Shown piece by piece: positions 54,300 to 58,019 of a DNA stretch of 64,000 nucleotides. This DNA comes from Bacteroidota bacterium. Its GTDB lineage: Bacteria; Bacteroidota; Ignavibacteria; Kapaibacteriales; UBA2268. The DNA lies in contig JAJXYC010000013.1 in assembly GCA_021780815.1 (NCBI GenBank), positions 124,001 through 188,000 on the forward strand, written 5' to 3'. How positions within the stretch are numbered: the stretch's first letter is position 1; the number at the start of each line of letters is the position of its first letter. A program made the translations under genes and the position numbers. A model generated the notes under the pieces. That model was not told the DNA's origin, did no database searches, and saw only the letters and a program-made list of their open reading frames with translations.

Positions 54300-54319
54300 T
54301 AAATTTTGAGAAGAGAGCA

Positions 54320-55279
54320 ATGGAAAATAAGAAGATTAAAGTACTCATAGTGGATGACCAACCTCTTGTGTTAGATATACTATCTAAAGGTTTGATAAAA
54401 GATGCAGAAATTGATGTTATAGGGACTGCCACAGATGGTTATTTAGCTTTAAATATGATAAACAGAGAATCGCCAGATGTTATTATTCTTGATATGGAAA
54501 TGCCAAGAATGAATGGAATTCAATTCCTGCATCAATTAAATGCTGATAATCCAATTCCAACAATAGTTTTAAGTGCTTTAACAAATGCAGATTCTCAAAT
54601 AACCAAAGATGCTTTTGATGCAGGTGCTGTTGATTTTTTAAAGAAGCCTTCTTCTGGTGCCAAAGGATTGCTTGAATTGATAACACAATTATGGATTAAA
54701 ATAAAAATAGCTGTTACGCAAGATGTTTCATATTTAAAAACGCCATTAAAAGATTACAAACTCCCATCTAATGTGTTAGACAGGAAAGCAAAGACTGATA
54801 ATGTTATACTTGGAATGGGTTCAATGGCAGTAACCGCTAACCCCGAAGAAAATTTGAAGATATTTGCTCTTGGCTCTTGCATTGGATTAGCTTTATTTTG
54901 CCCTTCTAAAAATGTTGTTGGCTTATCGCATGTTGCTTTACCTCTGGCTAAAACAGATTCACAAAAAGCAGTTGATTTACCCGGTTATTTTGGGGACACC
55001 GCTGTTCCTGCATTGCTCAATAAAATGTCTGAATTTGGTTGTACTCAGAATATGATATATGCAAAAATTGCCGGTGGTGCTAAAACCAAAGTGGAACTTG
55101 GTGATTTTTTTAATATCGGTCAAAAAAATGCTATTTCTGTTAAAAGCTCATTGATTAAATACCAAATTAAACTCCTTGCCGAAGATATTGGAGGAGAAAT
55201 TTCTCGTACGGCTATTTTAAAAGGTGGCGAGAAGTTTTTAACCTTACATCACCCGGTTAAAGGGACATGGCAAATTTAA
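54320..55279 (+). CDS. Response regulator with C-terminal CheD domain
   Basis: 319 residues from the ATG at 54320. The receiver has D12-D13, phospho-acceptor D58 (ILDMEMPRMNG) and KKPSSG, very close to CheB receivers. Instead of the methylesterase domain, residues about 155-319 form a CheD glutamine deamidase: ALGSC187-IG, LSH204-VALP (spacing 17 as in characterised CheD), GDTAVPALL, AKIAGGAK, NIGQKNA and LLAEDIGGE. The Thr that lies six residues before the Cys in Thermotoga CheD is Ile here. It may tie phosphorylation to deamidation of chemoreceptors or related proteins. No other che gene is in the window. Confidence 0.88.
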   Translation: MENKKIKVLIVDDQPLVLDILSKGLIKDAEIDVIGTATDGYLALNMINRESPDVIILDMEMPRMNGIQFLHQLNADNPIPTIVLSALTNADSQITKDAFDAGAVDFLKKPSSGAKGLLELITQLWIKIKIAVTQDVSYLKTPLKDYKLPSNVLDRKAKTDNVILGMGSMAVTANPEENLKIFALGSCIGLALFCPSKNVVGLSHVALPLAKTDSQKAVDLPGYFGDTAVPALLNKMSEFGCTQNMIYAKIAGGAKTKVELGDFFNIGQKNAISVKSSLIKYQIKLLAEDIGGEISRTAILKGGEKFLTLHHPVKGTWQI

Positions 55280-55370
55280 ATTTGTTTTTTTCCCCCTTTT
55301 TTTCTTTTTTTTTAAAAATTTTGCCCCTAACTGTAATTTTTTTCTGCTTTATGTGTTATATATATTTAGA

Positions 55371-55961
55371 ATGGCAGAATTTGAAAAATATAGTGACCAA
55401 GAATTAAGTTATCTATTTCTCTCGCAAGATAAAAAGGTAGCAAAAGGATCATTCGATGAGTTTTATCGTCGTCATGCACCTAAATTATATACTTTTTGTT
55501 ATAAGTTATTAAAGGATAAGAACAAAGCGAGAGATGTTTTTCAAGAATCTTTTGTTCATCTTTTTGAAAGGATTGAACAGAGAGGTGAGCCGATAGAAAA
55601 TTTAAGCAGTTATTTATTTAAAATTGCAAAAAATATGATTCTAAATATTCAAAGAAAGAAGGTATTACAAGAAGTGCCAATAAAAGGAGATAGATGGTCA
55701 GTCTTTCAAGAATCGTTAGAAGATAAACAACAAAAAGAATTATTAGATATTGCTATAAATCAATTACCTGAAAATTTAAAAGAAGCGTTAATTATGAAAG
55801 AATACTTAAATTATTCTTATAGCGAAATAAGCGATTTGATGAATATATCCCGTGATTCTGTTGCTGTGATGATTTTTAGAGCAAAAAAGAAATTAAAAGA
55901 TTTGTTAAAACCTATTCTAAATGAATTGGAAATAAAGGAGCAAGATAAATATGGAAGATAA
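55371..55961 (+). CDS. ECF-family RNA polymerase sigma factor
   Basis: 196 residues from the ATG at 55371. Region 2 (EFYRRHAPKLYTFCYKLLKDKNKARDVFQESFVHLF) and region 4 (LPENLKEALIMKEYLNYSYSEISDLMNIS-RDSV) are clear and no region 3 is present. Region 4 ends with AKKKLKDLL. It should direct polymerase to envelope or stress genes when its anti-sigma partner lets go. It overlaps the next gene by 11 bases. Confidence 0.93.
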   Translation: MAEFEKYSDQELSYLFLSQDKKVAKGSFDEFYRRHAPKLYTFCYKLLKDKNKARDVFQESFVHLFERIEQRGEPIENLSSYLFKIAKNMILNIQRKKVLQEVPIKGDRWSVFQESLEDKQQKELLDIAINQLPENLKEALIMKEYLNYSYSEISDLMNISRDSVAVMIFRAKKKLKDLLKPILNELEIKEQDKYGR

Positions 55962-57225
55962 TTATAAAATGGATTATTTAAATAAAATTAACGAATTTCT
56001 CGATGGGGAATTACCTCCTGAGGAAAGCAAAGATTTATTTAATAAACTTGCTGAAAATCCTGAGCTTCAGGAAGAGTTGAGGGGATTCGTTACTTTAAAG
56101 AATATGTTCCATCAAGAATTGCTTGAACCGCCTAAAATTGTGAAAACTAACCTTTATGCAAAATTTAATTTGCAAAGAAGTGCCATCTTTTTATCTATGT
56201 TATATGCAATTGGAACATATTTACGAAAAGCTATTTTAAACCCCGTATTTGCAATTACTATTGTCTCATTGCTTTTATTTACAATGGGGTATTTTATTAA
56301 TCAAAAAGAAAATCCTGTAAAATTTAATGCAACACAAAAACAAGAGGTTATTTCTAATAACAATTTACCAAATAAAGCGATTCAAAATAACAAATTAAAC
56401 AATAATGCGACAAACTTTAATAATAAAATACCTATAATCAGTTCTATTGAAAAAAGTGAAGATAAAAAAGCACCGAAAGTATCAAAAGTATCTAATGTGA
56501 CTAATTTGAACAAGAACAGAAATATTGCTGAATTTAATACAGACAATCAAATTGCAAATGCTTCTTCACAAAATTCAGAAGAAGTAAATTTACAACAAAG
56601 TAATGCACAAAATAATATTCAAATACCCCATAGAACAATAGAACCAAGTTTATTTGTAAGTGATTGGAATTTTAATTTTGAAAATTATAAAAATTCAGTT
56701 TCTATAACAAGTCCCGATTATGATTTGGTCCATTTTCTTGAAAGATTTAATATAGGAATATTTAAATCTAATTCAAAATCAACTATTTCAACTAATCTTG
56801 AACCATTAAGCAATCCGTTACTAAATGACTATAATTTTGAGTTAAGTTATTCAGTGAATGAACATAGTTCATTTTCCCTTGAATTAGGTCAAGAAAATTT
56901 CGTCCAACAATATACAGGAACAATAGATAAATCGCAGGCAAATATTACTCAGGTATATACTGCACAATTTTATGGTTTAGGTTATCAATATAATTTTCCG
57001 GAAGTTCGCAGTTTTATGAATATAAGCCCTTATATTAAAATTTTTGGTGGTGGAACAAACGTCGGTCCATTAGCAAAATTATCTACTGGTTTGTTTTATA
57101 GAGTTAATGAAAAATTAGCTTTGCAACTTGGATTTGAAAACTCTTATTTGTTCTATAATTTCCAGAACAATTGGTTTTCTTCGAGCAAATATGGTTTGAT
57201 ATATGGAGTTCAATTAGGATTTTAA
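55951..57225 (+). CDS. Membrane anti-sigma factor with C-terminal outer-membrane-like domain
   Basis: 424 residues. Residues 9-60 (INEFLDGELPPEESKDL, ENPELQEEL) resemble the helical sigma-binding part of zf-HC2-type anti-sigma factors, without zinc ligands. One membrane helix spans about 98-115. Residues about 118-235 are an Asn/Lys/Gln-rich, disordered linker. Residues about 290-424 alternate aromatic and polar residues in hairpins (NFELSYSVNEHSSFSLELG, AQFYGLGYQYNF, LSTGLFYRVNEKLALQLGF), ending in Phe as outer-membrane barrels do. It overlaps the sigma gene by 11 bases, a sign of paired control. The barrel-like end is inference from pattern. Confidence 0.75.
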   Translation: MEDNYKMDYLNKINEFLDGELPPEESKDLFNKLAENPELQEELRGFVTLKNMFHQELLEPPKIVKTNLYAKFNLQRSAIFLSMLYAIGTYLRKAILNPVFAITIVSLLLFTMGYFINQKENPVKFNATQKQEVISNNNLPNKAIQNNKLNNNATNFNNKIPIISSIEKSEDKKAPKVSKVSNVTNLNKNRNIAEFNTDNQIANASSQNSEEVNLQQSNAQNNIQIPHRTIEPSLFVSDWNFNFENYKNSVSITSPDYDLVHFLERFNIGIFKSNSKSTISTNLEPLSNPLLNDYNFELSYSVNEHSSFSLELGQENFVQQYTGTIDKSQANITQVYTAQFYGLGYQYNFPEVRSFMNISPYIKIFGGGTNVGPLAKLSTGLFYRVNEKLALQLGFENSYLFYNFQNNWFSSSKYGLIYGVQLGF

Positions 57226-57257: not shown

Positions 57258-58019
57258 ATGCACTATTTCAATCATAAAATATTGATAATTATTTTTTCGG
57301 TAAGTTATTTACTAATTTATTCTTGTAGTTCACCGTTAGATGTTCCTGCAAATCGTAATATTGAAATTAAAGATGGACCATACAAAAACCCACAAATTAG
57401 CCTTAATCCTACATTTGTTAATTTTGATTTTGTTCTTCCTGATTCAACAAAATTAATGACAATGACCGTTTCTAACAATTTAACAACAAAAATTCTTATT
57501 ACCGATTATTCTTTATATTTTAATGATAGTTATTTTTTATTATTTAATAAAAATGTTCCATTTGTATTAGATGCAAAAGGAGGTGCAAATTCTACTGTGG
57601 AAATTCAACTTGGATTTAAAGGAATTTCGTCTGGAATTTATCAAGATACATTGTTATTTTCAGGAATATTTTATCCGACAGGTTTACTTGAAGCAAAAGT
57701 TCCATATATTTATGCAAATTCAGTTAATTTAGGGAATATCCCTTTAAACCAAAATAGTGAAGGACAAATTATTATTAATAATTTGAGTGAAAGTTCTGCA
57801 ACTATTTCCAAAATTAGATTTTCAAACTTTTCCAATTATTTTAAATTTAAAAATGGTTTTCCAATAGTAATTCAAAGAAATTCCAAAGATACACTTTCTT
57901 TCATTTTTACTCCTTTGACACAAGGTAAATTTCAAGAGAATTTAACTTTTGAAATTACTACTCAGGCACAAAGGAAACTCGTTGATAGTGTGGCTACGAT
58001 ACAGGCTATCGTGAATTAA
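57258..58019 (+). CDS. Lipoprotein with ASH/DUF1573-like immunoglobulin repeats
   Basis: 253 residues. The signal peptide ends LLIYSC, with the lipidated Cys near residue 23. Two beta-sandwich units follow (ISLNPTFVNFDFVLPDS...MTMTVSNN and VNLGNIPLNQNSEGQIIINNLS) with the pattern of ASH or choice-of-anchor D domains, ending in TLSFIFTPLTQGKFQENL. It is probably exposed in the periplasm or on the surface. It lies 32 bases after the anti-sigma gene and may be its partner or a target of the sigma factor. Confidence 0.72.
   Translation: MHYFNHKILIIIFSVSYLLIYSCSSPLDVPANRNIEIKDGPYKNPQISLNPTFVNFDFVLPDSTKLMTMTVSNNLTTKILITDYSLYFNDSYFLLFNKNVPFVLDAKGGANSTVEIQLGFKGISSGIYQDTLLFSGIFYPTGLLEAKVPYIYANSVNLGNIPLNQNSEGQIIINNLSESSATISKIRFSNFSNYFKFKNGFPIVIQRNSKDTLSFIFTPLTQGKFQENLTFEITTQAQRKLVDSVATIQAIVN

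Follow-up and report, generated by a model that had tools for sequence, protein, structure and literature searches.

The closest described systems are the Dma anti-sigma factors, a family reported in gut Bacteroides from 2024 to 2026 in which an N-terminal anti-sigma domain, a membrane helix, a disordered tether and a C-terminal barrel follow one another, with an ECF21 sigma factor encoded adjacent (PMC13088901, whose reference for Dma1 is Pardue et al., 2024, PNAS e2321910121). According to that paper, which for Dma1 is a citing source, loss of Dma1 or Dma2 frees the respective ECF21 sigma factor. In B. thetaiotaomicron, the species studied, loss of Dma2 (BT_1558) raises das2 by 4.5 and the adjoining bt_1557 by 6.0 log2 units, the vesicle phenotype of Dma2 depends on das2, and the architecture is reported as confined to Bacteroidota (PMC13088901). 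Signalling through FecR and TonB-dependent receptors likewise puts a cytoplasmic ECF sigma factor under the control of an outer-membrane barrel, across the envelope, but there the receptor and the anti-sigma factor are separate proteins in contact within the periplasm, whereas the protein described here is a single chain in which Pfam finds no FecR or STN domain. The anti-sigma factors RseA and RsiW, whose C-terminal parts are periplasmic or extracytoplasmic, soluble and not outer-membrane barrels, resemble it in that a single membrane helix comes after a helical head, and differ from it in that it ends in a predicted outer-membrane barrel.

The protein is encoded in a 64,000-nucleotide stretch of a Kapaibacteriales genome (the window), as the second of three genes in the order ECF sigma factor, anti-sigma factor, lipoprotein (Table 1). 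An earlier note on this DNA knew of no described anti-sigma factor with this layout; that none is described is not supported, since the Dma family shows exactly this order of parts (PMC13088901). Its proposal that an ECF sigma factor is encoded just before the anti-sigma gene is borne out by Pfam matches (Sigma70_r2, E 5.9e-12; Sigma70_r4_2, E 1.5e-14) and by the related loci described below; the top NCBIfam match of the sigma factor, TIGR02985, lies under the cut-off of that family. Because the GTG start listed for the sigma ORF (55353) falls within the promoter box, the likely start shifts to the ATG given in Table 1. The Ig domain of the lipoprotein corresponds to PF22544 (E 2.9e-6). Directly upstream of the operon, positions 54317-55279 (+) hold one ORF that combines a response-regulator receiver domain (Response_reg, E 1.4e-24) with CheD (E 5.1e-21).

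Table 1. Features of the sigma, anti-sigma and lipoprotein operon, in positions of the window; residue numbers are those of the anti-sigma protein.
Feature	Position	Strand	Basis or remarks
ECF-type promoter box TGTAATTTTTTTCTGCTTTATGTGTTA (GTAA-N18-GTTA)	55332..55358	+	immediately upstream of sigma gene
ECF sigma factor gene, 196 aa from ATG 55371	55371..55961	+	Sigma70_r2, Sigma70_r4_2
Anti-sigma gene	55951..57225	+	424 aa; sequence ends ...YGVQLGF
Anti-sigma-type head, probably cytoplasmic	55954..56109	+	AlphaFold2 helices 2-17, 23-35, 37-53; PDB profile search
Amphipathic helix, residues 76-93	56176..56229	+	hydrophobic moment, family comparison
Predicted inner-membrane helix, residues 94-116	56230..56298	+	Kyte-Doolittle 2.15; AlphaFold2 helix 98-116
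Disordered Asn/Lys/Gln-rich tether, presumably periplasmic, residues 117-262	56299..56736	+	composition, pLDDT
Predicted eight-stranded OmpA-like barrel, residues 266-424	56746..57222	+	AlphaFold2, Foldseek, VIA-align
Lipoprotein gene, third gene of the operon	57258..58019	+	lipobox Cys23; Hydin/ASH-like Ig domain near C-terminus

The order of parts, the predicted fold, the conserved gene order and the conserved promoter spacing together support, with a probability of about 0.8, the reading that this is an anti-sigma factor of the Dma type, which links the outer membrane to the sigma factor encoded upstream and whose release of that factor leads to transcription of its own operon. In this model, the head would bind and inactivate the ECF sigma factor encoded directly upstream, the single helix would serve as inner-membrane anchor, the tether of about 145 residues would span the periplasm, and the C-terminal barrel would be inserted in the outer membrane, probably beside the lipoprotein encoded downstream. 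A change at the outer membrane, either in occupancy or assembly of the barrel or in the state of the lipoprotein, would then be relayed along the tether; the most likely route is a cut in the periplasmic stretch followed by intramembrane proteolysis, after which the freed sigma factor would transcribe the sigma, anti-sigma and lipoprotein operon from the box at 55332. Proteolytic release of this kind is possible judging from gene content, as two M50 site-2 proteases are encoded in the genome of the window, and such proteases are also present in 14 of 14 control genomes.

The N-terminal domain, which the earlier note had described as helical and of anti-sigma type, is indeed predicted to form a three-helix head (residues 2-53). 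Full-length AlphaFold2 prediction, run with a two-sequence alignment in which the second sequence was a relative (L004) of 25% identity, gave the five helices entered in Table 1 and eight strands between residues 266 and 423. The first three matches of the head in a PDB profile search, all weak, are the anti-sigma factors RsiW (E 0.016), RseA (E 0.039) and DdvA (E 0.26), and some relatives of the protein match RseA_N (best E 6.4e-6). A scan of the window protein against Pfam returned no family at E up to 1, neither a barrel nor FecR nor STN. A zinc-type anti-sigma head was ruled out, as the protein is devoid of Cys and the motif is found in no relative.

A single membrane helix had been proposed at about residues 98-115, and this agrees with both the sole Kyte-Doolittle segment (94-112) and the AlphaFold2 helix; nearly all relatives carry one strong membrane segment at the position corresponding to residues 94-116. 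If residues 77-92 formed a second membrane helix before one at 95-115, the C-terminus would be cytoplasmic and the protein would not be a trans-envelope regulator at all. Residues 77-92 are moderately hydrophobic, with R and K on the flanks, and this hydrophobicity is shared by the closest orthologues and restricted to them among 33 relatives. The segment is, however, short and amphipathic here, with a hydrophobic moment of 0.33 where the membrane helix has 0.05, and most relatives have a polar stretch in its place; basic residues lie at the cytoplasmic end of the membrane helix, and the domain that would be left in the cytoplasm is predicted to be an outer-membrane barrel. This topology is therefore extremely improbable.

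The disorder foreseen for the linker is supported by AlphaFold2, but its length was underestimated: it comprises about 145 residues (117-262) rather than 120. The pLDDT is 22-40 across the tether, structure is absent over residues 117-258, and N, Q, S, K, D, E, T and P make up 69% of residues 117-230. According to calculation, the linker has a contour length of about 53 nm and an end-to-end distance at rest of 6-9 nm, and a worm-like-chain estimate gives a tension of roughly 4-12 pN for bridging a periplasm of 20-25 nm, so that, by arithmetic alone, a mildly tensioned tether across the periplasm is possible. The same exposed and disordered stretch could be a target of proteases, and sigma regulators of the FoxR type are known to cleave themselves; the linker might thus be cut soon after export, leaving the outer-membrane barrel and the inner-membrane head to function independently of each other or to interact non-covalently. 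We regard this as unlikely, because the linker alignment of the relatives shows neither a conserved cleavage motif nor a folded domain for cleavage and because linker length stays at 118-175 residues throughout the family, which suggests that its reach matters.

The C-terminal barrel with a terminal Phe, put at 130 residues in the earlier note, was recovered as an eight-stranded domain, although a larger one of about 160 residues (266-424). Prediction of residues 230-424 alone yielded the same eight strands, with a mean pLDDT of 72 and most barrel blocks at 70-90, and neither AlphaFold2 nor Foldseek nor VIA-align pointed to the soluble beta sandwich that had been named as the alternative fold. 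Foldseek with the barrel model ranked OmpA first and NspA within the top four, and VIA-align superposed the model on NspA (Z 16.8, rmsd 2.5, 142 aligned) and OmpA (Z 16.7, rmsd 2.6, 153 aligned). A profile of the barrel found no sequence match in the PDB. Based on these models, the domain is best described as an OmpA-like barrel that would reside in the outer membrane. Soluble eight-stranded barrels (PsbO and designed proteins) also match the model, which might suggest a conventional anti-sigma factor of the inner membrane whose sensor is a soluble periplasmic barrel. Such matches reach a Z of about 11, whereas the best matches, all outer-membrane barrels, lie at Z 14-17; moreover, the strands alternate strongly in hydrophobicity, 30 of 33 relatives end in F, Y or L, and outer-membrane barrel Pfams are found in 24 of the 25 Bacteroidales counterparts. 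A soluble sensor is accordingly quite improbable.

This layout is not a product of chance, given that the barrel residues E315, G372 and G419 do not vary among 33 aligned relatives, that the linker keeps its length and that a sigma gene is found at all 66 related loci. At each of these fetched loci, an ECF sigma gene adjoins the relative on the same strand, at most 50 bases away where measured. The genome of the window contains five paralogues, each directly behind an ECF sigma gene; three were obtained with P0001, one lies on contig C16 and one on contig C17. Matches were found in 57 of the 60 genomes searched, comprising the genome of the window and its relatives, with up to 33 matches in a single genome, a number in which one gene can count repeatedly. 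No relatives were found in viral contigs, and a broad alignment (A2) proved too heterogeneous for pattern searching. Among named genomes, the nearest to contain a relative is a metagenome assembly of Candidatus Kapabacteria; at NCBI, taxid 976, the phylum Bacteroidota, has Candidatus Kapaibacteriota among its synonyms. A literature search returned no paper joining anti-sigma factors and Kapabacteria and no experiment on a Kapabacterial member. Genomes of the same class (e.g., G397, G352 and G226) also encode ORFs of about 160 residues that match the head and the membrane helix and end before the tether and barrel; they may represent the ordinary anti-sigma type that gave rise to the long form, or the long form may have come first.

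The window protein shares with Dma1 and Dma2 the order of parts, an ECF sigma gene directly upstream and a third gene directly downstream. In the dma2 operon the third gene is BT_1557 (DUF4943), which is a lipoprotein in the orthologues examined. Autoregulation of the operon has been shown for Dma2 (PMC13088901) and is likely for the Kapabacterial operon. For comparison, DUF4943 (PF16301) was used to locate Dma2-type operons in two genomes, and the set was then enlarged to 25 aligned Dma proteins of the Bacteroidales type, of which 24 match PF13568, a family of outer-membrane barrels, with E values no higher than 0.1, unlike the window protein, which has no Pfam barrel match. The similarity between the Kapabacterial and Bacteroidales barrels is weak (hhalign 61%, E 8e-5 in a single comparison), with an alignment that runs to the extreme C-terminus; the heads show no detectable similarity (profile probability below 2%). 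The membrane helix of the window protein lies at about 94-116, that of the Bacteroidales set at about 45-80. A tree of the sigma factors groups those associated with Bacteroidales Dma proteins in a clade with support 100 and leaves the Kapabacterial ones outside, but an AU test leaves a joint clade unrejected (p 0.585). Because the Dma layout is combined with weak barrel similarity, no detectable head similarity and sigma factors that group separately in the tree, the window protein is probably a diverged version of the Dma kind. One Bacteroidales locus (L127, 1132-2880) contains a 582-aa ORF with a membrane helix at 167-185 and a C-terminus of barrel type; a sigma ORF overlaps the beginning of this ORF, whose product is possibly a sigma-fused protein of Dma3 type.

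A lipoprotein gene follows the anti-sigma gene in 47 of 51 distinct related loci with enough downstream sequence; by the same lipobox test, 3 of the 46 window ORFs of at least 150 aa pass, including the operon's own lipoprotein. The types of lipoprotein recur by paralogue group: orthologues of the window protein go with CSSPLDVPANR, a second group with CTDTLGTDPN and CKDSLGIEPN, and a third with CECVPDINTPK. In rank Mantel tests on 47 loci, with species relatedness left in, sigma distances correlate with head distances when the barrel is controlled for (0.43, p 0.001), but not with barrel distances when the head is controlled for (0.06, p 0.16). Lipoprotein distances correlate with barrel distances when the sigma factor is controlled for (0.34, p 0.001), but not with sigma distances when the barrel is controlled for (0.06, p 0.18). 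This pattern hints at a contact between head and sigma factor and another between barrel and lipoprotein, but linkage along the gene order could also produce such a chain.

A single chain that reaches from a cytoplasmic sigma factor to the outer membrane is a recent discovery, and its near-universal, multi-copy occurrence in the searched genomes of the little-studied Kapabacteria, where it has a distinct head and comes with a matched lipoprotein, suggests a general role there in wiring the outer membrane to transcription. Whether the lipoprotein is the input of the barrel, and whether the layout was built once or twice, thereby become directly testable questions. Tentatively, and with less confidence than in the Dma-type assignment itself, the many cassettes of Kapabacteriales can be pictured as parallel wires from the outer membrane to promoters, each with its head matched to its sigma factor and its barrel to its own lipoprotein as sensor input; the lipoprotein could then be a plug, a ligand or an assembly partner of the barrel, and the layout may have arisen separately from that of the Dma proteins in Bacteroidales, with another anti-sigma head as its base.

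A scan of regions upstream of sigma genes brought up a dyad, GTAA-N18-GTTA, which is present in 16 of 56 related upstream regions, that of the window operon included, against 0.34 expected, and spacings of N10-N17 and N19-N21 have 0 or 1 occurrence each. Such a promoter of fixed spacing fits autoregulation by the ECF sigma factor, which would itself read the box. A genome-wide search for the box gave six sites, namely the window's own, three in or at a dispersed repeat, one apparently intragenic and one before a gene for an exported protein; no regulon is claimed from these. At the last of these sites (L175, about 1501-1560), the box is accompanied by a second half-site and lies about 33 bases upstream of the gene for a 489-aa exported protein, a possible regulon member on the strength of this site. 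The dispersed repeat has a length of about 400-500 bases and includes a (GGCTTTAT)n tract (L173, 1501-1990; L174, about 1090-1529 on the minus strand; L176, near 1501). The genome of the window has about 15 longer copies, on contigs C5, C9, C12, C13, C17 and C18, and none was found in the window; most copies begin at the -10 part of the box. Three places at or in the repeat carry TGTAAT-N16-TGTTATATATA, which is nearly identical to the box of the window's sigma operon. The repeat may be transcribed by the window's sigma factor, or the operon promoter may have been derived from the repeat.
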